Source: Collybia mongolica
Taxonomy: Eukaryota; Basidiomycota; Agaricomycetes; Agaricales; Clitocybaceae
Assembly: GCA_013420905.1 (NCBI GenBank)
Contig: JAAXNY010000011.1
Coordinates: 1,674,001 to 1,738,000 of the forward strand
Reading direction: 5' to 3'
DNA: 64,000 bases
Every line of letters begins with the position of its first letter. The first letter of the stretch is position 1. Made by a program: the position numbers and the translations under genes. The notes beneath the pieces are model-generated. The model saw only the letters and a program-made list of their open reading frames with translations, was not told the origin of the DNA and searched no databases. Below are positions 3,991 to 43,875 of this stretch, in pieces.

Positions 3991-5309
3991 TCAAACCCCT
4001 ACGTTCTTCAGTTGGAACGAATCCTGATGATAGGTGCCACTGTGTGTCGAAGATATCCTAGTTGTCGAATCGTGCTGAGCAAAAGCAATGGTCGGCGGTT
4101 TTCCGGGATCATTGCCACTCCCTATGACGTAAGGACGTTCTGCATAATGACTGGTCGTATTGGTAGTAAATCCTTTGTTTACTGCCAACATGATAAGCGC
4201 AGGGAATATTCCCTGGTAGTCCGTCAGTCCTACCACACAAAATGTCAAACACGACCACAACTTACCATGATCTGTGGCATACATTCGAGCGGGATGTAAA
4301 ATGCGTTCAGTCCATTGAGTCCATCGTCAGGCGAGATCTGGAAGAGGATGAATTCGATTGTTTTGCTGATTGCCATAAATATCCCAGACTCGATTATGAT
4401 AAGAATAACGGAATGGTACTTGACTTGGGAGGATTGAAAGTTTGAAGCACCAAGCTGATGCGATAACCTCCTGAAGGAACGTGTTAGCATAGTCATGTAC
4501 AAATAGATAAGGACCTTCTATGACGGACCAAATTCTCCCCGCAGTCAAACCAGTCACGAGAATATTTGTTGCCATTGAAATGGATAGCATTGCTCCGGCC
4601 CATCTTACGGCTACCGCCTCATATGGGTTCGGGGTGAAATATCGTCCCACAGAACCATACCCTGATACTTGATATTACCAGATTCAGTGCTCTTCATTCC
4701 AGAAGAGTGCACCGTAAAATTCACCTGCTGTGCCAACTACCATGATCGCGGGGAGAGAAATGGCATAGTAATTTCTATTCCACACCATGAAACAGCGCCA
4801 CACTAAGATGAGGTCTCCAAGGACGATCTTTTGAAAATAAGCAAGATGTACATTAAGCCAGGTTTTGATCAGTGACACTCACCATAGATATATATATCAT
4901 ATCCTTACTCCTGTTGAGTGGTTGGCCGATATCTGCGAAATAAGATATAGCCCCTCCCTCGTCATGAATGTGAACGATAAATCCTTGAATGAGGCGGGCA
5001 AGTACTAGAGCTATATGTGCAGTCGCGAGCATATACCTAGGCTTTAATTAATTTGGGATGGGATAGTTTGAGTGCTCTACGCACATTAGACAAACAGCGG
5101 CCATGGGCACATAGTGACGGCGTATGTTCTCTCGTTTGTTCAGAACAGAAGTCATCCACAGGAGAAAAATTATTGTGTATCCACCTAAGTTAACGTTATT
5201 AAATCAGCATATGGACAAGACAAAGATGCGAAGTCATACCCCAGAGCGCGCTGGCTAACCACCCTCCTACAAGGTACGCCTTATCAATTGGGAAGTTTGG
5301 TGGGGACAT
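3991..5309 (-). CDS. Agaricomycete multi-pass (7-TM) membrane protein, 330 aa
   Basis: Seven exons on the minus strand: 5309-5240, 5184-5085, 5036-4883, 4827-4725, 4667-4529, 4470-4266 and 4212-3991 (including stop). Every junction is GT-AG and keeps frame, giving 330 residues. Hydrophobic segments alternate with short loops. Recognisable landmarks are WLASALWGGYTIIFLLW, LGDLILVWRCFMVW followed by a WNRNYY loop, GLTAGRIW near the fifth segment, ILIIIESG in the sixth, and GIFPALIMLAV in the seventh, followed by a hydrophilic C-tail of about 65 residues. This order is typical of a large, uncharacterised serpentine family that is expanded in mushrooms. A receptor-like role is possible but unproven; no ligand or G-protein motif can be named. 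The gene appears complete. Confidence 0.8.
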
Positions 5310-9439: not shown

Positions 9440-9700
9440 AGTCCTTATGTTTACATAAGTAACTCATTCATCATCCTGGGAAAATTCAGCATACCCAACA
9501 AGATCCAGTTTCCAAGAATTCATTAGAACATGGTCAATAAACATTTTGAAGTACATTAGTAAGACTTTGTAGTTGTGGAAATATTTTTCTAACTGTGAGA
9601 ATCAAAATTAGCTGAGGTGCATATTCTAAGCAAAAAAGGCAACTGCTAACATAGGCTGTATTTAATACCATAATTTTGAGTTAATCTCAGGAATTAAATA
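9440..9700 (+). repeat. Diverged terminal fragment of the palindrome-arm element
   Basis: Starts AGTCCTTATGTTTACATAAG and follows the first about 280 bp of the palindrome arm (30428-30710) with scattered substitutions and small gaps, then continues into sequence matching 31681 onward. It therefore lacks the 953-bp retro-insertion found in both arms and shows the pre-insertion state of that site. It is an older, truncated member of the same family. Confidence 0.8.
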
Positions 9701-29960: not shown

Positions 29961-29979
29961 GGGGGGGGGGGGGGGGGGG
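29960..29979 (+). repeat. Homopolymer run of 20 G
   Basis: Twenty consecutive G preceded by CCCCCA. It marks the truncated end of a family-B repeat. Length may be unreliable because such runs are error-prone in sequencing. Confidence 0.8.
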
Positions 29980-30192
29980 CAGTAGAAGAATCTGAGACCT
30001 TGAGTCCCCTGGACCCTTACATCAAGGGACTTGTAGGGTCCTCCATAGGACAACTTCTCAAGTAGGAAATTCAGTTTGGCTAATTTTGGCCAAGTTCAAT
30101 TGCACCAGACTAGATGAGAATCTGTTATCTTCTTCTCCTTATTCTACCCCATCTGTGTACTTCACCATATAAATATCTACAAGTTAATATAA

Positions 30193-30450
30193 ATGATACT
30201 AAGGGTCTTTGGTTTAACCTTACCAATATACTTAGGGGAGCCTGCCCTAGCTGTAGCTAACCTTTCAAAGCATCTTACAGTGAAAAGGCTTGAGGCTGAG
30301 GCCAACATTAATTATTACTTATGTGGGCAAACTACAAAGCTCAAAAACATAAGGAATCATGTGGGAAAGTACTTGCTTTTTGCTCAGAGAAAACCAAATC
30401 AATTTGAGAAGTTACTACCTGATTACAAGTCCTTATGTTTACATAAGTAA
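30193..30450 (+). pseudogene. Transposon-type ORF fragment running into the palindrome
   Basis: 85 codons with a single-finger-like pattern (LCGQ, then IRNHVGKYLL) reminiscent of C2H2-like fingers in mushroom transposon proteins. The last 7 codons lie inside the palindrome end, so the native C-terminus may have been cut off by its insertion. No start or upstream exons assigned. Confidence 0.3.
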
Positions 30451-30712
30451 CTTGTTCATCATCCTAGGTTTGCGGGGAAAATTCAGCGTACCCAACAAGA
30501 TCCAGTGTTGTTTTTCCCATGGTTAGTAATTTTGAAGTGTTCTGAGAATTCATTAGAACATGATCAGTAAACATTTTGAAGTACATCAGTAACACTTTGT
30601 AGTTGTGGAAATATTTTTCTAACTGTGGGAAGCAATATTAGCCAACGTGCGGATTTTGAGCAAAAAAGGCAACTGCTAACATAAGCTGCTTTCAATACTA
30701 TAATTTTGAGTT

Positions 30713-31665
30713 TTTTTTTTTTTTTTGGGTCATATAAAAATATTAAGCGCATGTGGGTTTGACCCAGCTACATGCAGGCATAAACACCTATTACCACTAA
30801 GTAATCTGTAATGGGCCATCAGGGTGGAGCTGTACACTAAGTTGCTCTCCAGGTCATATTACAGGTCTAGACTGAGGATACCTGCAGTCCAATGGTATTG
30901 TACTGTACCATGTCTGAACCTCCCAATGCCTTAAAGGTTTACCTTCGCTTGTCAGGGCATGGTCCCCTCCCTTCACGTTGGTACCCCATTCCACTCCCCT
31001 CCTGGTATTTTCAGGTTGCCCTGGAAACCCATTACTCCCCCCCAGTGTCAAAGATAAATGTCCAATCTAAATGAACAACCCATACCTCAAACCTGCTCCC
31101 CCTCTCCTGAATCCCCCCTATTACTTTCCCCCCTGTTCCACACTGCTCTCCCAAAGCAATGACTCCCCTCCAAAATGAGGCTGCCAAATCCCACCATTGG
31201 TCAATAAACTGGCATTCTCCCCAAGAGGTGTGCTCTGTGCAGGGACAGTAGCTGATCGGGGGCCAGACCCCTTCCTCCTTTTTTGTGTTTGGGTGTAGTG
31301 GTTAAGCAAGTACAAATAAATTGTCAAAAATGTTGGCAGTGACGCTCCCTAAGGATCTGCGTGAAACAGAGTACTAGAGTTGTGGTGTCCTTGTGTGGCC
31401 TGGTAGTTGATGAGGTGGATGTGAACAGATTAGTGAAGCCCCCAGTACAGGCAAGATGAGATGTCCCTGCAGATAGTCAGGATCAGCTCTGATAAGTTAA
31501 AAATTTGGATATGGTATAAAAGGATAGTGGCCCAGGCTGAAAGAGTGGTCTGATGAAAGGCAATGTCGATTAGGGATGAGGTGTTAGGTAGTTTAGGGAC
31601 GACCTAGTGCAGGAGGGACAAATTCCCACGGTCAGATGGTGGTGGTAAAAGATCAAGAAGCATTG
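30713..31665 (-). mobile_element. Poly-A retro-insertion (SINE/LINE-tail or retrocopy), left arm
   Basis: 953 bp in reverse orientation. The plus strand begins with a T run (a poly-A tail on the minus strand), and the element is flanked by identical 15-bp duplications CTATAATTTTGAGTT at 30698-30712 and 31666-31680. Long variable target duplications and a poly-A tail indicate LINE-machinery insertion. No reverse transcriptase frame is present. The related repeat at 9440 lacks the insertion. Confidence 0.8.
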
Positions 31666-31733
31666 CTATAATTTTGAGTTAATTGGTCTTATGTTGGGAT
31701 ATCTCAAGAATTAATTAATAACTGTCCACTGCA

Positions 31734-31803
31734 TAATCATGCTTACGTTTGTCAACTACGCTGTTAGCTCTAACAGCATAGTTGACAAACATAAGCATGA
31801 TTA
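31734..31803. repeat. 70-bp hairpin (34-bp arms), left arm
   Basis: TAATCATGCTTA... pairs with ...TAAGCATGATTA around a 2-nt loop with two mismatches. It would form a strong stem in DNA or RNA. It could be a minimal MITE. Confidence 0.8.
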
Positions 31804-31847
31804 CAAGAGGCTTCTTCCGCTTTGGGCCAAACTTTTCCCACATTACA

Positions 31848-32790
31848 AAACATTGAATATCTCAACAACGACAAGACTTATGGATGCAATTTAAATTGCT
31901 ATCACTAGATATGGTGAAGGGCTACCCAATTGGTATATTTGTATGTATTTGTATTTGTTTGTTCACCTTCAAACATCATGATCAAAAGCAGCTCTCTCAC
32001 TACAAGCATGTTTGTATATGACTTTGCCACAGCTAGCCAAACAAACAATACCATCAAAGTTCCCACAATATAAATCATTGCATATCTCAGCAACAACAAG
32101 GCCTATGGATATAATTTAAATTGCTAGTGTTAGATATGGTGAAGTAGTACCTCATGTATATGTTTGTAAGTGTTTGTATTTGTTTTTATTTTTCTAAACC
32201 TCATCAACAACAATTTTCTTGCTACATATTACAAATGAATACTGTCTGTATATCACTTCATCACATCTGACCAAATAAACAATAATATTAAAGAAATTCC
32301 CACAATATAGATGATACTTATCTCAGCAAATACAAAGCTGATGGACATGCTACTACTAGACATTGTAACAGAATACATGATGTGTTTATTTATATGTGTT
32401 TGTAGTTGTTTGTACCCTTCCAAATCTCATTATCAACAACAACCTTTTTACTACATATTACAAATGAATATGATCTGTATATCACTTTGCCAACATCTGG
32501 CCAAACAAACAATATTAATGAAGTTCTGACAATATAGATGATGCATATCTCAGCAAATACAAGGCTAACAGACACAATTGAAATTGCTACTACTCCTAGA
32601 CCTATGGAGGGGGTACACCAGGAAATGTATATTTATATTTGTTTGCCTTTCCAAATTTGATTATAATCTCTTATTATATCTATTTTAATATCACATTTAT
32701 ATATTACTTGGCTATAAGCATAGCTAAACAAGTCAATGTGGATGCTCCTGGAATCTATAATGCCCAATATCTTGACAATGGCTAGCTACA
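31848..32790 (+). repeat. Tandem array of ~220-236 bp units, left arm
   Basis: Four diverged units plus a partial one, anchored by a TATCTCAGCAA-type word near 31857, 32083, 32320, 32547 and 32768. Each unit continues into a GTTTGT-rich region and an AACAACAA region. Not coding. Confidence 0.7.
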
Positions 32791-33044
32791 ATATATGAGT
32801 ATAGTTAAATATAGTATGTGATAATACAACAAAAAACACTTAACAGGCATATGTACATTTGTTTGAACTTTGTCTTTGATGATGATATTTCTATTTTTAG
32901 CATATCTGATAAGTTTTTGATTAACCCAGGATGCAAGGCTAGAAATAAAATGTTAAATGTTGAATGGTTGATATACATTTCAATACTATGGGAACTTGTT
33001 TCTATCATTACAAGTTCTTTATCAACCCAGGTTTCGGGCAAAAA

Positions 33045-33071
33045 ATTGATTGATTGATTGATTGATTGATT
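33045..33071 (+). repeat. (GATT)n microsatellite, left arm
   Basis: About seven copies of GATT. The right arm has the mirrored run at 39286-39312 with the same number of units, which matters for judging how recent the palindrome is. Confidence 0.85.
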
Positions 33072-33969
33072 CATATTTCAACACTGCAGGAAAATATTTC
33101 CATAATGGGATTTTTCTTCTCTTGTGGCTTTTTACAGCATTTTTCCACAAATACAAAGTATTGTGACATAATTTGCATGTATTTGGGATGCTTACATAAT
33201 GCTTTTGATGATGCCATCAAAATTATGCATATCTAATATTTCAGAGTGTCTCAAAATTTATTTTGTGTTTCTCTCCATAACCAGTAAAGCTATTAACTTT
33301 GTTTTATATATTTGGAATGTACAAACATGGCTCAACAATTTCCTTGTTGAGCATATTTTCTCCACAGTCCATATTGAGCAAAATATTAGAAATGTCCAGA
33401 TTCAGCTAGTTTTGAAGGTCTGTGTGTTATGTCAGGGGTGAACAAACATCTTATAACAACAATGACCCTTACCAAACATGACCCTTGTGGGAAATTACAC
33501 TAAACATTGGAATAATCAACAACTACTACTATAATTACCTGAAATACAAATTAGATTGATTTCTCTATTTATTGGCACATGTCACATGATCTATTCCACC
33601 ATATAAGTATACCAAATACATGACAACAATCTGAATGCTTATTAGTGTCCATGATCCTGGGAAAAGTTAGTTCTGATGGTTTTTGTGTTTTCTCCATAAC
33701 CAGGCAAGCTATGGCATTGGGTTTTGTGCACAGGTATTGCTTGTTTACTTGGTAACATTCTCCCATGGTCACATGATCTCTATAAACTATCATCTACATT
33801 GTTTCTACTCATTTACAACTTCCTGAATATGGAATGGAGCCACACAGTGTGTTGGCCCACTCCACCCAAGTAGGCATTTGGATTAATATTACTTCCTTAG
33901 TGATTAACTATTTGGTATATTCTTTGTTTATTAATTGTCTTAAAATTTAAACAATTAGTTTAAGTTTCA

Positions 33970-34245
33970 CAATTGGGTAGTCCAATCTATAAATAGATAC
34001 ATTGGATAAATACTGTGGGTGTACCAGAAGTCTATATCAGCCTACTAGAGCTGTGCAAATAGTACAGGGGTAAAGTATTAGTAAGAAGTAAACTAATATT
34101 TGCAAAAGGAATAAGAACATATCACAAGGTAGATAGAATTACACCAAGGTAGTCTCAAGGTATACAGCAGCATATAGGTGCATATACAATAGAACAAGGT
34201 ATATCTGAGCAACTAGATGTGAAGCACATATGCACTCACCTTACA
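33970..34245 (-). mobile_element. Family-B LTR remnant, left arm (inverted)
   Basis: Reverse complement of the family-B sequence seen at 28266-28691. Its 5' terminus on the minus strand reads TGTAAGGTGAGTGCATATG. It is diverged from the copies outside the palindrome, and no target duplication was seen. Confidence 0.6.
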
Positions 34246-35333
34246 CACATCTGGTTTGGGCATAGGGGTGATTGGCACTACTTGGTCTAGACAGCACATC
34301 TAGGGGTGCACACCCAGCCACCAGGTGATGGTTCTACCATATGGAATATACCACTGCACCATCCATGTCCACCATGCTAGCTGCTCACTAGCAGATGTGG
34401 GCAGGCAGTCACTGATAATGTGGCAGGTGCCTCTGTAGTTCTTGCTGCAGCTCTTATTGTTGTGATTTTGCAGTTGTTATTTTCACTGAGAGGGGTGGAT
34501 ATGAGAGAGGGTGGTGGTATCCATGGCAGTGGGACCTGGCATTGTACTTGGCAGTGTTGTGCACAATCATATGGCAGGGAGGTGATGGGTGGGGCAGCTG
34601 GGGATGTAGTGGTGGAGGTTGACAACAAGGCTAACAGGTGATGTAGTACCTATCAACAATATTCAGCCATTGCCAGTAATGGCCAAGAGTAGGCAGCAGG
34701 GGTCATTATAAAAACAAGCACCTTGGACTAACAAGCTCATATTACCAAATGGTTAATCTGCATACTTTATGCACATGACATGTAACCTTGAGGCCTTGTA
34801 TTTGACTCTCCAAAATGTTGCATTTTTGTGCATTAAATAAGCAATGGTAACTAGCAATCTGGACAGTCTGCATGGACTTCATGAGGAGTTGTTCCAAGCT
34901 GGGTCTGAGCATCCAAGTAACAGCATGGATTTATGGACTTAGCTTTGACTTGGCTCAGATGCAGACTGCCAATCAAGCAGGGCTCCCTGCCAAACAGGGT
35001 CTGAGCTCAGACTGCAGACACCTGCATTTGTCTGTGCGGTCTGTGTAGCCCATATAGCTCAGCGTAAAGTCCCCAGAGAAGCTACTGAGTTGGTTGTATA
35101 TTTGGAATATACAAATATGGATCTACATTTCCAAGTTTGTTAATTTTTTCATATAGTCCATCTCTGAGAGTCTCAGTCCCTACTTTACCAGCTGACTTGT
35201 TTTTAAGGGAAGTGCCTAGATATATATGGATACCTTTTGTTGTTGGATATTTGTATAGGATCTATAAACACCAACTTCTATTGGCAATTCATATGCAGTT
35301 GCTTATATCATACACCATGGATATGGGTGAAGT

Positions 35334-35726
35334 TGTAAGGGGATCACTTGTTTGTCCATATCTAGCCATCAGAATCACTATTCCACAGCTTGCATAGCCT
35401 CCCTGTTATATCTATTGTTCTGACACACACTGCTTTAACCCCTTGGCAGATAGTAGTTTACTCTGGACTGACATATCACAGATGGATTATTGCATCAGTA
35501 GAGTTACTGATATCAGATTCTGTTGTTATTTGAGACATAGATACAATGTACTGTATATAAGGTGCCCCTTCCTCTCCATGGAAGGGCACCTTTGCAATAG
35601 ACTTGGGCTGCATTCTCTACTCATAGTCAAGCCTCTAGTGCTCTATGCTCATCCCTTCCCTGCATGGTTATTCATACTGTGTATACTGCTCCCTGTCTGA
35701 GCCTCTTGGCAACATGACCCCTTACA
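35334..35726 (+). mobile_element. Solo LTR of family A with 5-bp target duplication, left arm
   Basis: 393 bp, TGTAAGGGGA to CCCCTTACA, flanked by GAAGT on both sides (35329-35333 and 35727-35731). This is a textbook solo LTR left by recombination between two LTRs of one retrotransposon. Confidence 0.9.
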
Positions 35727-36161
35727 GAAGTGCAACAAGTATTTGGCAAGCTCAAATGTGTGGTCATATTACATCTTCATGTTGTGTATCCATCAGGCCT
35801 TCCATGTTGTCAAGCTACTCCCTGTACCCTACAATCTAATTCTAGGACAATGCCTGACAAGTGTTCCAGAACCAAACTTATCAACAACAAAAAGTAATAT
35901 AAAGTTGAAGAGATTCTGGATAGCTAGTTCTATTGCAATAATCTGGTTCTAGAAATATAAAGAAAAGTTAATCAAAAAAAAAAACATAAGGACTCGTATC
36001 TGCCAGTAATGGCCCTCTACCTCAAGTCTATGCTTATTGGACTCCTATGTATATATAGGGATATTCTAGCTTAGTTAGTTCTTTAGCTTTACCTAGCTGA
36101 ATTCACCTTATTCATCTATTCTTGACTCCTCAATGCAAACTCAATCCTACTTGCCTTACAA

Positions 36162-36195
36162 GTCAGATCATTCATTCAATGATGCGCTACTCCCT
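36162..36195. repeat. 34-bp spacer at the palindrome centre
   Basis: The only non-mirrored DNA in the structure. It is flanked on both sides by 167-168 bp of palindromic DNA lying outside the two transposon-like units, so the duplicated block is larger than the element itself. Confidence 0.85.
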
Positions 36196-36630
36196 TTGTA
36201 AGGCAAGTAGGATTGAGTTTGCATTGAGGAGTCAAGAATAGATGAATAAGGTGAATTCAGCTAGGTCAAGCTAAAGAACTAACTAAGCTAGAATATCCCT
36301 ATATATACATAGGAGTCCAATAAGCATAGACTTGAGGTAGAGGGCCATTACTGGCAGATACGAGTCCTTATGTTTTTTTTTTTGATTAACTTTTCTTTAT
36401 ATTTCTAGAACCAGATTATTGCAATAGAACTAGCTATCCAGAATCTCTTCAACTTTATATTACTTTTTGTTGTTGATAAGTTTGGTTCTGGAACACTTGT
36501 CAGGCATTGTCCTAGAATTAGATTGTAGGGTACAGGGAGTAGCTTGACAACATGGAAGGCCTGATGGATACACAACATGAAGATGTAATATGACCACACA
36601 TTTGAGCTTGCCAAATACTTGTTGCACTTC

Positions 36631-37023
36631 TGTAAGGGGTCATGTTGCCAAGAGGCTCAGACAGGGAGCAGTATACACAGTATGAATAACCATGCAGGGA
36701 AGGGATGAGCATAGAGCACTAGAGGCTTGACTATGAGTAGAGAATGCAGCCCAAGTCTATTGCAAAGGTGCCCTTCCATGGAGAGGAAGGGGCACCTTAT
36801 ATACAGTACATTGTATCTATGTCTCAAATAACAACAGAATCTGATATCAGTAACTCTACTGATGCAATAATCCATCTGTGATATGTCAGTCCAGAGTAAA
36901 CTACTATCTGCCAAGGGGTTAAAGCAGTGTGTGTCAGAACAATAGATATAACAGGGAGGCTATGCAAGCTGTGGAATAGTGATTCTGATGGCTAGATATG
37001 GACAAACAAGTGATCCCCTTACA
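36631..37023 (-). mobile_element. Solo LTR of family A, right arm
   Basis: Mirror of 35334-35726, including the GAAGT duplications (seen as ACTTC on the plus strand). Confidence 0.9.
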
Positions 37024-38111
37024 ACTTCACCCATATCCATGGTGTATGATATAAGCAACTGCATATGAATTGCCAATAGAAGTTGGTGTTTATAGATCCT
37101 ATACAAATATCCAACAACAAAAGGTATCCATATATATCTAGGCACTTCCCTTAAAAACAAGTCAGCTGGTAAAGTAGGGACTGAGACTCTCAGAGATGGA
37201 CTATATGAAAAAATTAACAAACTTGGAAATGTAGATCCATATTTGTATATTCCAAATATACAACCAACTCAGTAGCTTCTCTGGGGACTTTACGCTGAGC
37301 TATATGGGCTACACAGACCGCACAGACAAATGCAGGTGTCTGCAGTCTGAGCTCAGACCCTGTTTGGCAGGGAGCCCTGCTTGATTGGCAGTCTGCATCT
37401 GAGCCAAGTCAAAGCTAAGTCCATAAATCCATGCTGTTACTTGGATGCTCAGACCCAGCTTGGAACAACTCCTCATGAAGTCCATGCAGACTGTCCAGAT
37501 TGCTAGTTACCATTGCTTATTTAATGCACAAAAATGCAACATTTTGGAGAGTCAAATACAAGGCCTCAAGGTTACATGTCATGTGCATAAAGTATGCAGA
37601 TTAACCATTTGGTAATATGAGCTTGTTAGTCCAAGGTGCTTGTTTTTATAATGACCCCTGCTGCCTACTCTTGGCCATTACTGGCAATGGCTGAATATTG
37701 TTGATAGGTACTACATCACCTGTTAGCCTTGTTGTCAACCTCCACCACTACATCCCCAGCTGCCCCACCCATCACCTCCCTGCCATATGATTGTGCACAA
37801 CACTGCCAAGTACAATGCCAGGTCCCACTGCCATGGATACCACCACCCTCTCTCATATCCACCCCTCTCAGTGAAAATAACAACTGCAAAATCACAACAA
37901 TAAGAGCTGCAGCAAGAACTACAGAGGCACCTGCCACATTATCAGTGACTGCCTGCCCACATCTGCTAGTGAGCAGCTAGCATGGTGGACATGGATGGTG
38001 CAGTGGTATATTCCATATGGTAGAACCATCACCTGGTGGCTGGGTGTGCACCCCTAGATGTGCTGTCTAGACCAAGTAGTGCCAATCACCCCTATGCCCA
38101 AACCAGATGTG

Positions 38112-38387
38112 TGTAAGGTGAGTGCATATGTGCTTCACATCTAGTTGCTCAGATATACCTTGTTCTATTGTATATGCACCTATATGCTGCTGTATACCTT
38201 GAGACTACCTTGGTGTAATTCTATCTACCTTGTGATATGTTCTTATTCCTTTTGCAAATATTAGTTTACTTCTTACTAATACTTTACCCCTGTACTATTT
38301 GCACAGCTCTAGTAGGCTGATATAGACTTCTGGTACACCCACAGTATTTATCCAATGTATCTATTTATAGATTGGACTACCCAATTG
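38112..38387 (+). mobile_element. Family-B LTR remnant, right arm
   Basis: Mirror of 33970-34245. Reads TGTAAGGTGAGTGCATATG on the plus strand. Confidence 0.6.
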
Positions 38388-39285
38388 TGAAACTTAAACT
38401 AATTGTTTAAATTTTAAGACAATTAATAAACAAAGAATATACCAAATAGTTAATCACTAAGGAAGTAATATTAATCCAAATGCCTACTTGGGTGGAGTGG
38501 GCCAACACACTGTGTGGCTCCATTCCATATTCAGGAAGTTGTAAATGAGTAGAAACAATGTAGATGATAGTTTATAGAGATCATGTGACCATGGGAGAAT
38601 GTTACCAAGTAAACAAGCAATACCTGTGCACAAAACCCAATGCCATAGCTTGCCTGGTTATGGAGAAAACACAAAAACCATCAGAACTAACTTTTCCCAG
38701 GATCATGGACACTAATAAGCATTCAGATTGTTGTCATGTATTTGGTATACTTATATGGTGGAATAGATCATGTGACATGTGCCAATAAATAGAGAAATCA
38801 ATCTAATTTGTATTTCAGGTAATTATAGTAGTAGTTGTTGATTATTCCAATGTTTAGTGTAATTTCCCACAAGGGTCATGTTTGGTAAGGGTCATTGTTG
38901 TTATAAGATGTTTGTTCACCCCTGACATAACACACAGACCTTCAAAACTAGCTGAATCTGGACATTTCTAATATTTTGCTCAATATGGACTGTGGAGAAA
39001 ATATGCTCAACAAGGAAATTGTTGAGCCATGTTTGTACATTCCAAATATATAAAACAAAGTTAATAGCTTTACTGGTTATGGAGAGAAACACAAAATAAA
39101 TTTTGAGACACTCTGAAATATTAGATATGCATAATTTTGATGGCATCATCAAAAGCATTATGTAAGCATCCCAAATACATGCAAATTATGTCACAATACT
39201 TTGTATTTGTGGAAAAATGCTGTAAAAAGCCACAAGAGAAGAAAAATCCCATTATGGAAATATTTTCCTGCAGTGTTGAAATATG

Positions 39286-39312
39286 AATCAATCAATCAAT
39301 CAATCAATCAAT
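39286..39312 (-). repeat. (AATC)n microsatellite, right arm
   Basis: Mirror of the GATT run at 33045-33071, with identical unit number. Confidence 0.85.
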
Positions 39313-39566
39313 TTTTTGCCCGAAACCTGGGTTGATAAAGAACTTGTAATGATAGAAACAAGTTCCCATAGTATTGAAATGTATATCAACCATTCAACAT
39401 TTAACATTTTATTTCTAGCCTTGCATCCTGGGTTAATCAAAAACTTATCAGATATGCTAAAAATAGAAATATCATCATCAAAGACAAAGTTCAAACAAAT
39501 GTACATATGCCTGTTAAGTGTTTTTTGTTGTATTATCACATACTATATTTAACTATACTCATATAT

Positions 39567-40509
39567 TGTAGCTAGCCATTGTCAAGATATTGGGCATTAT
39601 AGATTCCAGGAGCATCCACATTGACTTGTTTAGCTATGCTTATAGCCAAGTAATATATAAATGTGATATTAAAATAGATATAATAAGAGATTATAATCAA
39701 ATTTGGAAAGGCAAACAAATATAAATATACATTTCCTGGTGTACCCCCTCCATAGGTCTAGGAGTAGTAGCAATTTCAATTGTGTCTGTTAGCCTTGTAT
39801 TTGCTGAGATATGCATCATCTATATTGTCAGAACTTCATTAATATTGTTTGTTTGGCCAGATGTTGGCAAAGTGATATACAGATCATATTCATTTGTAAT
39901 ATGTAGTAAAAAGGTTGTTGTTGATAATGAGATTTGGAAGGGTACAAACAACTACAAACACATATAAATAAACACATCATGTATTCTGTTACAATGTCTA
40001 GTAGTAGCATGTCCATCAGCTTTGTATTTGCTGAGATAAGTATCATCTATATTGTGGGAATTTCTTTAATATTATTGTTTATTTGGTCAGATGTGATGAA
40101 GTGATATACAGACAGTATTCATTTGTAATATGTAGCAAGAAAATTGTTGTTGATGAGGTTTAGAAAAATAAAAACAAATACAAACACTTACAAACATATA
40201 CATGAGGTACTACTTCACCATATCTAACACTAGCAATTTAAATTATATCCATAGGCCTTGTTGTTGCTGAGATATGCAATGATTTATATTGTGGGAACTT
40301 TGATGGTATTGTTTGTTTGGCTAGCTGTGGCAAAGTCATATACAAACATGCTTGTAGTGAGAGAGCTGCTTTTGATCATGATGTTTGAAGGTGAACAAAC
40401 AAATACAAATACATACAAATATACCAATTGGGTAGCCCTTCACCATATCTAGTGATAGCAATTTAAATTGCATCCATAAGTCTTGTCGTTGTTGAGATAT
40501 TCAATGTTT
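39567..40509 (-). repeat. Tandem array of ~220-236 bp units, right arm
   Basis: Mirror of 31848-32790. Confidence 0.7.
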
Positions 40510-40553
40510 TGTAATGTGGGAAAAGTTTGGCCCAAAGCGGAAGAAGCCTCTTG

Positions 40554-40623
40554 TAATCATGCTTATGTTTGTCAACTATGCTGTTAGAGCTAACAGCGTA
40601 GTTGACAAACGTAAGCATGATTA
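40554..40623. repeat. 70-bp hairpin, right arm
   Basis: Mirror of 31734-31803, with the same two mismatched pairs. Confidence 0.8.
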
Positions 40624-40691
40624 TGCAGTGGACAGTTATTAATTAATTCTTGAGATATCCCAACATAAGACCAATTAACTCAAAATTATAG

Positions 40692-41644
40692 CAATGCTTC
40701 TTGATCTTTTACCACCACCATCTGACCGTGGGAATTTGTCCCTCCTGCACTAGGTCGTCCCTAAACTACCTAACACCTCATCCCTAATCGACATTGCCTT
40801 TCATCAGACCACTCTTTCAGCCTGGGCCACTATCCTTTTATACCATATCCAAATTTTTAACTTATCAGAGCTGATCCTGACTATCTGCAGGGACATCTCA
40901 TCTTGCCTGTACTGGGGGCTTCACTAATCTGTTCACATCCACCTCATCAACTACCAGGCCACACAAGGACACCACAACTCTAGTACTCTGTTTCACGCAG
41001 ATCCTTAGGGAGCGTCACTGCCAACATTTTTGACAATTTATTTGTACTTGCTTAACCACTACACCCAAACACAAAAAAGGAGGAAGGGGTCTGGCCCCCG
41101 ATCAGCTACTGTCCCTGCACAGAGCACACCTCTTGGGGAGAATGCCAGTTTATTGACCAATGGTGGGATTTGGCAGCCTCATTTTGGAGGGGAGTCATTG
41201 CTTTGGGAGAGCAGTGTGGAACAGGGGGGAAAGTAATAGGGGGGATTCAGGAGAGGGGGAGCAGGTTTGAGGTATGGGTTGTTCATTTAGATTGGACATT
41301 TATCTTTGACACTGGGGGGGAGTAATGGGTTTCCAGGGCAACCTGAAAATACCAGGAGGGGAGTGGAATGGGGTACCAACGTGAAGGGAGGGGACCATGC
41401 CCTGACAAGCGAAGGTAAACCTTTAAGGCATTGGGAGGTTCAGACATGGTACAGTACAATACCATTGGACTGCAGGTATCCTCAGTCTAGACCTGTAATA
41501 TGACCTGGAGAGCAACTTAGTGTACAGCTCCACCCTGATGGCCCATTACAGATTACTTAGTGGTAATAGGTGTTTATGCCTGCATGTAGCTGGGTCAAAC
41601 CCACATGCGCTTAATATTTTTATATGACCCAAAAAAAAAAAAAA
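40692..41644 (+). mobile_element. Poly-A retro-insertion, right arm
   Basis: Mirror of 30713-31665. Here the poly-A tail is on the plus strand at the 3' end (just before 41644), followed by the target duplication. The sense-strand frames 41030-41236 and 41306-41503 match no family I recognise. Confidence 0.8.
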
Positions 41645-42152
41645 AACTCAAAATTATAGTATTGAAAGCAGCTTATGTTAGCAGTTGCCTTTTTTGCTCA
41701 AAATCCGCACGTTGGCTAATATTGCTTCCCACAGTTAGAAAAATATTTCCACAACTACAAAGTGTTACTGATGTACTTCAAAATGTTTACTGATCATGTT
41801 CTAATGAATTCTCAGAACACTTCAAAATTACTAACCATGGGAAAAACAACACTGGATCTTGTTGGGTACGCTGAATTTTCCCCGCAAACCTAGGATGATG
41901 AACAAGTTACTTATGTAAACATAAGGACTCGTCATAAGCGTAGTTTACACTATTGGTTGTATAGATAGGAGGGATTAGTGCTATTGGTTATATGGATAAG
42001 GGGATGAGTAAGCATGGGAAATAGAATGCATATATGGGTTGTTAGAGATAAAAGTCAGCCAATGTTAGTAAGCAATGTGTAATCAATGATATGTAAGGAA
42101 AAGAGTGAATAAAGCACATGAATAGGGAATTTGTAACAGGCATGTCTTTGGT

Positions 42153-43875
42153 TCAAGACATGCTGCTGGCTGACTCCTCATATTCCTTGCCATCTTCATC
42201 ATTGTCACCATCATCTGCATCTTTGACAGCAGCTGCCTTTCCCTTTCCCTTCAACAATTGATGGCTTGGGGTGGCCTCATGCTGTTCATGAGCCATTGTC
42301 TGTTCCAGCTTGGCCTCCAGCCTCTGCAATGCCATGAGGTTCAAGGTCACATGGCAAGCCTCCTTTTCCAGACAACAAAGTTGATCAGATATGCTGTTGA
42401 TCTCCATATGAACAAGTGCCAAGTCAACCAACATGGCCATAGGAGATGGCCCAATTGCTGGCGCAGTCTGGCTCATCACCACCCTTGACAGCAAACTCCT
42501 CATAGTCCAAATGACCCAGCCAGTCCTCAGATCAACCATTGGCAAGCTAGGTGTAACCAGCATCATGATCCCACCTGGACTCTCACCTGTCTGTGCTCCC
42601 AACACCTTTGCATGCCGTGCCTTGATGCCACCCATGTTCCATGATGCAGGCCACACCCCCACTGAGCTTTCCACACCACTGCCAGCTGAACTCTCCCTGC
42701 CTCGCATGCTGCAACTGATGTTGGTCTTTGCATGGCCCCAAGGAACCAGGAGCTCTGGCAAACTTTTGCTGTCACTGGCAACCTCCTCACCACTAATCCC
42801 AACATCTGTACTGGCACTGGGCCCAACCAGACCCATAGTCAAAACAACAAGGTGTTTCAACAGCTTTGCATTCTTCACAATCTTGTCCTGCACCCATTCC
42901 AGCAATCCCTTCATTGCTGCCACCAACAGGTCACACACCCATTTGCCTGCCTGGCACCACATACACTTGTATGACCAGAGGGAGTCTTTGAATTTGCAAA
43001 CTCCCTTGATGCTGCAACAGTAGTTGCATGGCTGGGTCATCTAATGATTGCATGGTGAGCCACAATCATTGTCACTTCATGACTGCTTACCTTGTGAGTT
43101 GTTGGAAAATGGCATGTCCTCAAGTAGTGCTGGTACACTTGGTCTGGTCCTGACATTCCTTTACCCCATTTTGCCAACATCTCCACTGCCTCAGGCTGCT
43201 CCCTGCTAGCTTTCCATTTTGACCAGCCACTGTATTTGTTACTGTTGACTTTTGAGAAGTAAGCACAACCTCTGCCCAGAGCCATGGGGTCTTTGATATT
43301 GCCAATGACATTGAAAGAGCCCTGGGCCGTGCCAACAGGGGAACCTGCTCTTTGGCAGACTCACTTTTGTTGCTACCAATCACCTTCATCTTCACAACTG
43401 CTGGCAACTCCTCATCATCCGAGTCACCACTGATACTGGTATCCCCACCAGCAACCTTCACTGCACTTTTGGCCTGACATTTTGAACAGCCTGTTGACTC
43501 CATTGGTGGACTGGTGGCCAATTCAGCTTCAACTTCCTGGAGTTTCTCCTTGATCAAAGCTGGTCCCAAGCTGAGTAGATGATTGTAGTTGTGATAGTTG
43601 AGCTCCCACCAAGCTCCATTGATGTGCCTGTAGATAAATGTGTCCAGTAACAACATCGTGTATGGCATGCTGGTGGTAATGATGTTGGTTGGTGCACTGG
43701 CCAGATCGATGTACAGGTCCTGCCATTTGTCTTTACCCCATGTCATCTCAAACAATTTATTGATCAACTTACCTGTGTCGCCATCACACATCCTGTGATC
43801 TTGAATGCATCCTCTGGCATCATGTTCACCCCTGGCCTGATTTGAGGAAATTGAGGACATGGCTAGCTTTGACAA
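42153..43875 (-). CDS. Transposon-associated hypothetical protein, 545 aa
   Basis: Three exons: 43875-43165, 43129-43091 and 43040-42153, joined by two GT-AG introns in phase 0. The N-terminal half has a WGKDKWQDLYIDLASAPTN stretch and a hydrophobic MLLLDTFIYRHINGAWW segment. The middle has two CxxC clusters (PCNYCC and CMWC with nearby Cys), suggesting a zinc-binding or DNA-binding region. After a Met/Leu-rich coiled-coil-like part, the C-terminus is very acidic. The frame is intact. From memory, this architecture resembles multi-copy hypothetical proteins embedded in repeats of Boletales and related mushrooms; that similarity was not checked. Function unknown. Confidence 0.55.

Follow-up and report, generated by a model that had tools for sequence, protein, structure and literature searches.

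An 11.5-kb palindrome ending in two Helentron-like insertions in Collybia mongolica, a probable scar of DNA repair

The palindrome and its parts

The genome assembly of the basidiomycete Collybia mongolica (GCA_013420905.1; 46 Mb in 26 contigs) contains, on contig JAAXNY010000011.1 (C11), a long inverted repeat whose arms consist mainly of a Helentron-like transposable element. We analysed it within a stretch of 64,000 nucleotides, positions 1674001-1738000 of the contig, which is called the window here and in whose numbering positions are given. The arms run from 30428 to 36161 and from 36196 to 41929, 5734 bp each, around an unpaired centre of 34 bp (36162-36195); paired positions keep a mirror sum of 72357, and the arms differ at exactly one place, 36090 against 36267. 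Recomputation agrees in all these values with the original prediction, which had been made from the letters alone, and as a feature of the assembled sequence the 11.5-kb palindrome is confirmed. The length and identity of the arms exclude chance as its origin. In this study, we argue that the palindrome is probably a scar of DNA repair and not a new kind of mobile element.

The left unit lies in a host repeat, A, and the right unit, H2, in another, R; the insertion on the left side is called H1, and X denotes the first 134 bp of R past the insertion point. L-numbers are genome loci fetched for comparison with the window. The features are as follows.

29961..30423, plus strand: host repeat A, left flank of the palindrome; starts with a run of G and is interrupted after CCTGAT
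30424..36027, plus strand: left Helentron-like unit; 5' TACA-AGTCCTTATG..., 3' ...CTACCTCAAGT; termini placed from other genomic copies
30424..30437, plus strand: 5' inverted-repeat arm TACAAGTCCTTATG, followed by the hairpin CTTATG-TTTA-CATAAG
30698..30712 and 31666..31680: 15-bp direct repeats CTATAATTTTGAGTT flanking the nested insertion
30713..31665, no strand assigned: older nested insertion of about 953 bp in the left arm, beginning with oligo-T, retroposon-like
35985..35998, minus strand: 3' inverted-repeat arm CATAAGGACTCGTA, 29 bp from the 3' terminus, with the hairpin GCCA-GTAA-TGGC between
36028..36161, plus strand: left copy of X, with a derived base at 36090
36162..36195, no strand assigned: centre, bases 135-168 of R, present only in the right unit's copy
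36196..36329, minus strand: right copy of X (original R beside H2), identified by comparison of R copies
36330..41933, minus strand: right Helentron-like unit (H2); 5' end GACG-AGTCC... at 41933; both flanks are R
40692..41644, no strand assigned: nested insertion of the right arm, mirror of 30713-31665
41934..42144, minus strand: 5' part of R, right flank of the palindrome; begins TGTTACAAATTCCC, long terminal repeat (LTR)-like

The limits of the units had first been set at AGTCCTTATG. This sequence does sit at all four boundaries; as an element terminus it is refuted, since other copies extend 4 bp further at the 5' end and 33 bp further at the 3' end. The 167-168 bp of extra DNA noted on the inner flank of each unit are present as well, but really consist of 33 bp of element 3' end and 134 bp of host repeat R. 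The statement that the arms hold an older nested insertion stood: the segment of about 953 bp at 30713-31665 with its 15-bp direct repeats is lacking from L075, and L011 aligns through it at 93%. Among the loci compared, the best other relative of the arm reaches at most 96.2% identity over at least 1 kb.

An abundant Helentron-like family

The genome has 444 occurrences of AGTCCTTATG and 95 of a reversed control, and the longer patterns of the 5' and 3' ends have 179 and 180 exact copies, respectively. At the true 5' end a T is followed by TACG, TACA or TATG and then AGTCC..., that is T^TAC(G/A)AGTCCTTATGTTTACATAAG..., the caret marking the junction; the true 3' end reads ...CATAAGGACTCGTATCTGCCAGTAATGGCCCTCTACCTCAAGT^. 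The base before the element is T in all 44 distinct 5' ends compared, and the first element base is T in 43 of them. The four-base starts are TACG (20), TACA (12), TATG (10), TACT (1) and GACG (1), the last being the start of H2 and occurring only once in the genome. CTCAAGT stands at all 14 other 3' ends compared. The TACG, TACA and TATG variants resemble CpG decay and suggest mutation of the family linked to methylation or similar to repeat-induced point mutation (RIP).

The terminal inverted repeat is asymmetric: TAC(G/A)AGTCCTTATG is found at the very 5' end, and CATAAGGACTCGTA ends 29 bp inside the 3' end. The hairpin near the 5' end has an energy of -9.6 kcal/mol and the one near the 3' end is weak, -5.6 kcal/mol (both are RNA energies computed on the commoner letters of the family, not on the window's own). 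A repeat at the 5' extremity but 29 bp inside the 3' end is the architecture described for Helitron2/Helentron elements (PMC5148889, PMC4067079), and the distance of 29 bp lies in the range of 20-60 bp by which the class was recognised here. Insertion produced no target-site duplication, the flanks joining directly in the six R copies tested; it occurs after T, and the following base is C, G or others, unlike the A-T site of Helitron1. A canonical Helitron1, with 5' TC, 3' CTRR and insertion between A and T, was rejected, as the element begins with TAC... and ends with ...CTCAAGT. The units of the window, 5604 bp long, exceed most family copies and hold no listed open frame above 89 aa. On these sequence features, the arms are an abundant non-autonomous Helitron2/Helentron-like element, similar to Helentron-associated interspersed elements (HINEs).

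Neighbouring ends were paired for 105 of the 179 exact 5' ends and 95 of the 180 exact 3' ends, those on contigs C1-C6 and C8; C9 onward was left out. These 200 ends form 48 normal 5'-3' neighbour pairs, 41 of which span 2.3-6.5 kb, six 5'-5' pairs and two 3'-3' pairs, and 88 ends are unpaired. At C1:371526-371736, a 5' end and the 3' end of the next copy stand head to tail 159 bp apart, possibly a tandem insertion.

The Helitron_like_N profile has 40 matches in the genome, several in frames above 1700 aa, and the one match tested is related to Helraiser (PDB 7lcc). None of the 40 was linked to the termini of the Helentron-like element. At C4:1751930-1752286, a Helitron_like_N fragment with stops lies directly outside a family 5' end; judged from this arrangement, the Helentron there appears to be inserted in a decayed Rep gene. 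The window also holds an orphan 5' end of the family at 9440-9682 on the plus strand, TTACAA followed by AGTCC..., about 243 bp long, which corresponds to arm positions 1-285 at 77% with a deletion. Between it and 30348, no AGTCCTTATG with at most one mismatch marks its 3' end. Within the window, Rfam gave no family at gathering score, and no match was returned in a homology search for the frame of 295 aa at 42153-43040.

The two insertion sites

On the right, the sequence from 41934 onward resembles three R copies at 91-92% (L062, L079 and L081) and a fourth, L080, at 77%, up to the base beside X. The 5' flank of H2 and its 3' flank, X with what follows it (36329 down to 36160), are adjacent in uninterrupted R. 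The resulting junction, (A/G)CTTAT^CTATGC, is present in all six R copies tested (L062 and L077-L081); in L054 the site is deleted. By comparison with these copies, H2 is shown to be a complete, ordinary insertion in R and the original unit of the palindrome. R is abundant and LTR-like, a label given by inspection. X and the 34-bp centre form one continuous run in the R copies L054 and L079-L081. The inverted pair of 134-bp segments around the centre was also considered as a separate fold-back miniature inverted-repeat transposable element (MITE), which is refuted, as R copies hold one arm and the spacer contiguously. The join at the centre overlaps by 2 bp, AA: R breaks off at 168 bp and continues there into an inverted copy of itself. 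For the R sequence beyond X, three R copies found no match in the window.

On the left, ten other near-full copies of A match to within 15 bp of the junction, and there are further partial matches. Ten A copies (L087-L096) were examined at the site. Four of them (L088, L089, L094 and L096) read CCT(G/A)GTGTATC and L095 reads CCTGGGGTATC, where the window has CCTGAT^TACAAGTCC; past the site, the same five continue with GTATCTA(C/T)... L087 departs after AGTGTA, and L090-L093 are shorter forms of A lacking the site. Since the A copies continue through the site while the window switches to the element, the left junction is a genuine Helentron insertion site. The 3' end of H1 joined to the rest of A is absent from the assembly at up to three mismatches.

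The two insertions are distinct also in their first letters. The left unit starts with TACA and the right one with GACG, two differences in 4 bp as compared to one in the next 5734 bp, which suggests a source other than the right unit for these four bases. The single mismatch inside the arms is derived on the left, the right-arm base of 36090/36267 being found in six of six R copies tested. How much of the left arm was copied is a matter of degree. Among 300 pairs of 35 distinct 1-kb pieces from the 3' part of the family, the median identity is 93.9% and the best 99.9%. Since unlinked copies can be this similar, the identity of the element body alone is no proof of direct copying. Proof comes from the left copy of X, which lies outside the element: by comparison with R, at least these 134 bp, inverted on the left, are shown to have been copied from the right. 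Most simply, the left body, which is identical to that of the right unit, would also be a copy of H2. Before the event, H1 may have been near-identical to H2, may have consisted of a 5' remnant, or may have been an average copy that H2 then overwrote. Going inward from the outer ends, arm position 39 is the first at which both arms carry the same otherwise rare variant, which 37 of 38 other copies lack. With H1 as an average member of the family, the switch to it would therefore fall within the outermost 38 bp. The near-identical unlinked copies weaken this 38-bp limit, and weaken an argument against misassembly as well.

Origin of the palindrome

We put at about 60% the probability that the palindrome arose recently, when DNA repair or replication produced an inverted duplication on two opposed Helentron-like insertions, H1 in A and H2 in R. 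At the start, these insertions would have stood in opposite orientation, with R broken 168 bp past H2. By one route, the broken R end would fold back on a two-base match and be copied outward through X and H2, until copying switches onto H1 and proceeds into A. By another, the end bearing H1 would invade H2, copy to run-off at a resected strand after 134 bp of R, and be joined to a 3' overhang longer by 34 nt. On both routes, the DNA between H1 and H2 would be lost. Either would explain why the arms are identical, why 34 bp stand on one side only, why the overlap is small and why parts of A and R are lost, and the outer limit would fall at the 5' terminus of the element because homology between the two insertions ends there. 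The absence of a junction from H1 to the rest of A is expected if the intervening DNA was lost. Two marks of a repair-made inverted duplication were found, the 2-bp AA junction at the centre and the loss of the DNA beyond it. In the consulted parts of work on yeast, inverted repeats in single-stranded DNA give rise to inverted dimers; these break, and Ty1 or subtelomeric PAU repeats serve as the sites of their repair (PMC10164571), and fold-back inverted-dimer repair leaves inverted duplications (PMC10164571, PMC6103520). The original prediction had named replication template switching with one transposon end as breakpoint, which comes close to this reading; its left limit, however, is a second Helentron junction, the terminal bases being different.

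Several points weigh against an origin by repair. With an average H1, homology extends over about 5.6 kb and the switch has to fall in its last 38 bp, a chance of about 0.7% for uniformly placed switches; a short 5' remnant as H1, or conversion up to its edge, would remove this difficulty. A sibling H1 would free the switch position, but it would then have to be explained why two of the first four bases differ and no later ones. Moreover, the reading is drawn from one static locus, by which neither the original distance or linkage of A and R nor the order of the joins is fixed.

A compound assembly artefact is unlikely, though less so than the other rival accounts. Here, a chimeric palindromic read at R/X would be followed by a repeat jump of the assembler into an unrelated, real junction of A and H1. 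That long reads can contain artificial palindromes is a recognised difficulty, as the consulted part of one source describes (PMC6218980), and the numerous Helentron copies (179 exact 5' ends), some of them unlinked and 99.9% alike over 1 kb, make such a jump conceivable. The mirror ends, however, at the end of the element with a true insertion junction next to it, and the left arm has one derived base. If the join were an artefact, the true passage from H1 to the rest of A should also stand elsewhere in the assembly, where, as noted, it was not found. This absence fits a real deletion equally well, and also an H1 whose 3' end is different or lost. The earlier suggestion of an assembly fold-back thus keeps some standing in this compound form. 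A simple fold-back of a read is rejected, as it would run into R beyond the element; instead, the mirror stops at the 5' end and repeat A follows.

One-ended transposition with bypass of the 3' end we regard as distinctly improbable. H2 would have passed its 5' end to A, replication would have continued for 134 bp beyond the 3' end, and the free end would have been rejoined to R, with two inverted copies as the result. Both outer limits are Helentron 5' ends after T, the left copy includes 134 bp of 3' flank, and capture of flanks by bypass of the 3' end is reported for Helitrons in the consulted part of PMC5148889. The transferred end should, however, keep the GACG of the donor, and the left one reads TACA; beyond the palindrome, A does not resume; and no second tail-to-tail pair with a copied flank was seen among the 200 paired ends, none at all lying within 1.5 kb. 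Highly doubtful, too, is the wider claim that Helentron transposition itself yields tail-to-tail inverted dimers, in which a one-ended, end-bypassing strand would snap back at its 3' end, be completed to a palindrome and be joined at both 5' ends. If this is true, rolling-circle transposition in eukaryotes would have a further, new kind of product.

That an inverted-pair or fold-back unit moved in one piece, as first proposed, is scarcely credible: the outer ends of the palindrome are indeed 5' ends of one family, and six neighbour pairs on C1-C6 and C8 are 5'-5', but the outer flanks are two different repeats, A and R, the partner half of R lies in the centre, and the inverted parts of the 5'-5' composites L075, L082, L083 and L085 are short or 79-98% alike, L085 being a nested insertion, with no near-perfect palindrome.

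The search for further palindromes bounded by AGTCCTTATG, recommended in the original prediction, found none among the pairs examined, and among the matches listed for X, up to about 40 per list, there was no second palindrome centre. Three of the six 5'-5' pairs were read (L075, L082 and L085), together with the composite L083; the other three, C1:358910/371550, C3:410069/427622 and C5:783251/798853, are 12.6-17.6 kb apart and lay outside the comparison. The arms of L075 are just 91% alike over 0.7 kb. In L082, the inverted parts measure 93 bp at 98% and 55 bp at 91%, and in L083 the inverted 5' end is 96% like its neighbour's. L085 (C6:850000-857130) is a Helentron nested in an opposite-strand copy at arm position ~2330; this nesting puts outward-facing 5' ends on both sides of the composite. 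Of the two 3'-3' cases, L084 is a mosaic. In the other, L046 (C1:2093266-2096496, at 1049-1731), a 258-bp piece of the 3' part lies in inverted orientation between arm positions 5177 and 5178 of another copy; it ends exactly at the Helentron 3' terminus and has a non-canonical 5' start. The closest tail-to-tail pair, L097 (C1:3207800-3212000; ends 3208804/3210985), has a 2.2-kb centre and no common flank; its members are 98.9% identical over the 1006 bp fetched, tenth among the 300 pairs of 3' pieces. Among the ends examined, the palindrome of the window is the only near-perfect one found.

As far as the consulted parts of the cited papers describe them, FoHeli1-5 of Fusarium oxysporum (PMC5148889) and DINE-1/HINE elements (PMC4067079) share with the window element the asymmetric repeat, one arm being at the 5' extremity and the other about 30 bp short of the 3' terminus. 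Helitron2/Helentron-HINE elements (PMC5148889, PMC4067079) also have hairpins near the ends, insertion after T without target duplication, non-coding copies and self-insertion. The terminal letters of the window element differ from those printed in the consulted parts of these papers, and its unit has no listed frame above 89 aa. Chimeric Helitrons with several 5' ends that arose by self-insertion are already known (PMC5148889). A literature search at the level of titles and the opening lines of abstracts returned no description of Helitron palindromes of the present kind.

Long perfect palindromes are unstable and rare in natural genomes, according to the consulted part of PMC10766186. The same source describes junctions of origin-dependent inverted-repeat amplification (ODIRA), which the window resembles in a short unpaired centre at a closely spaced inverted match. 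These have a match of 5-6 bp and a centre of 40-80 bp, unlike the 2 bp and 34 bp found here, and neither a triplication nor a second palindromic junction was noticed in the window. With the fold-back and inverted-dimer events of yeast, as given in the consulted parts of PMC10164571 and PMC6103520, the locus shares an inverted duplication, the loss of neighbouring DNA and an outer join in a dispersed transposon. It differs from them in being 5.7 kb long and interstitial, with intact arms, and in that its mechanism is read from one static locus. An intact palindrome with 5.7-kb arms, both of whose parent sites can be read from repeat copies, would be a record of a fold-back duplication terminated by a transposon, and it illustrates that a palindrome with limits exactly at transposon ends need not itself be a transposon.

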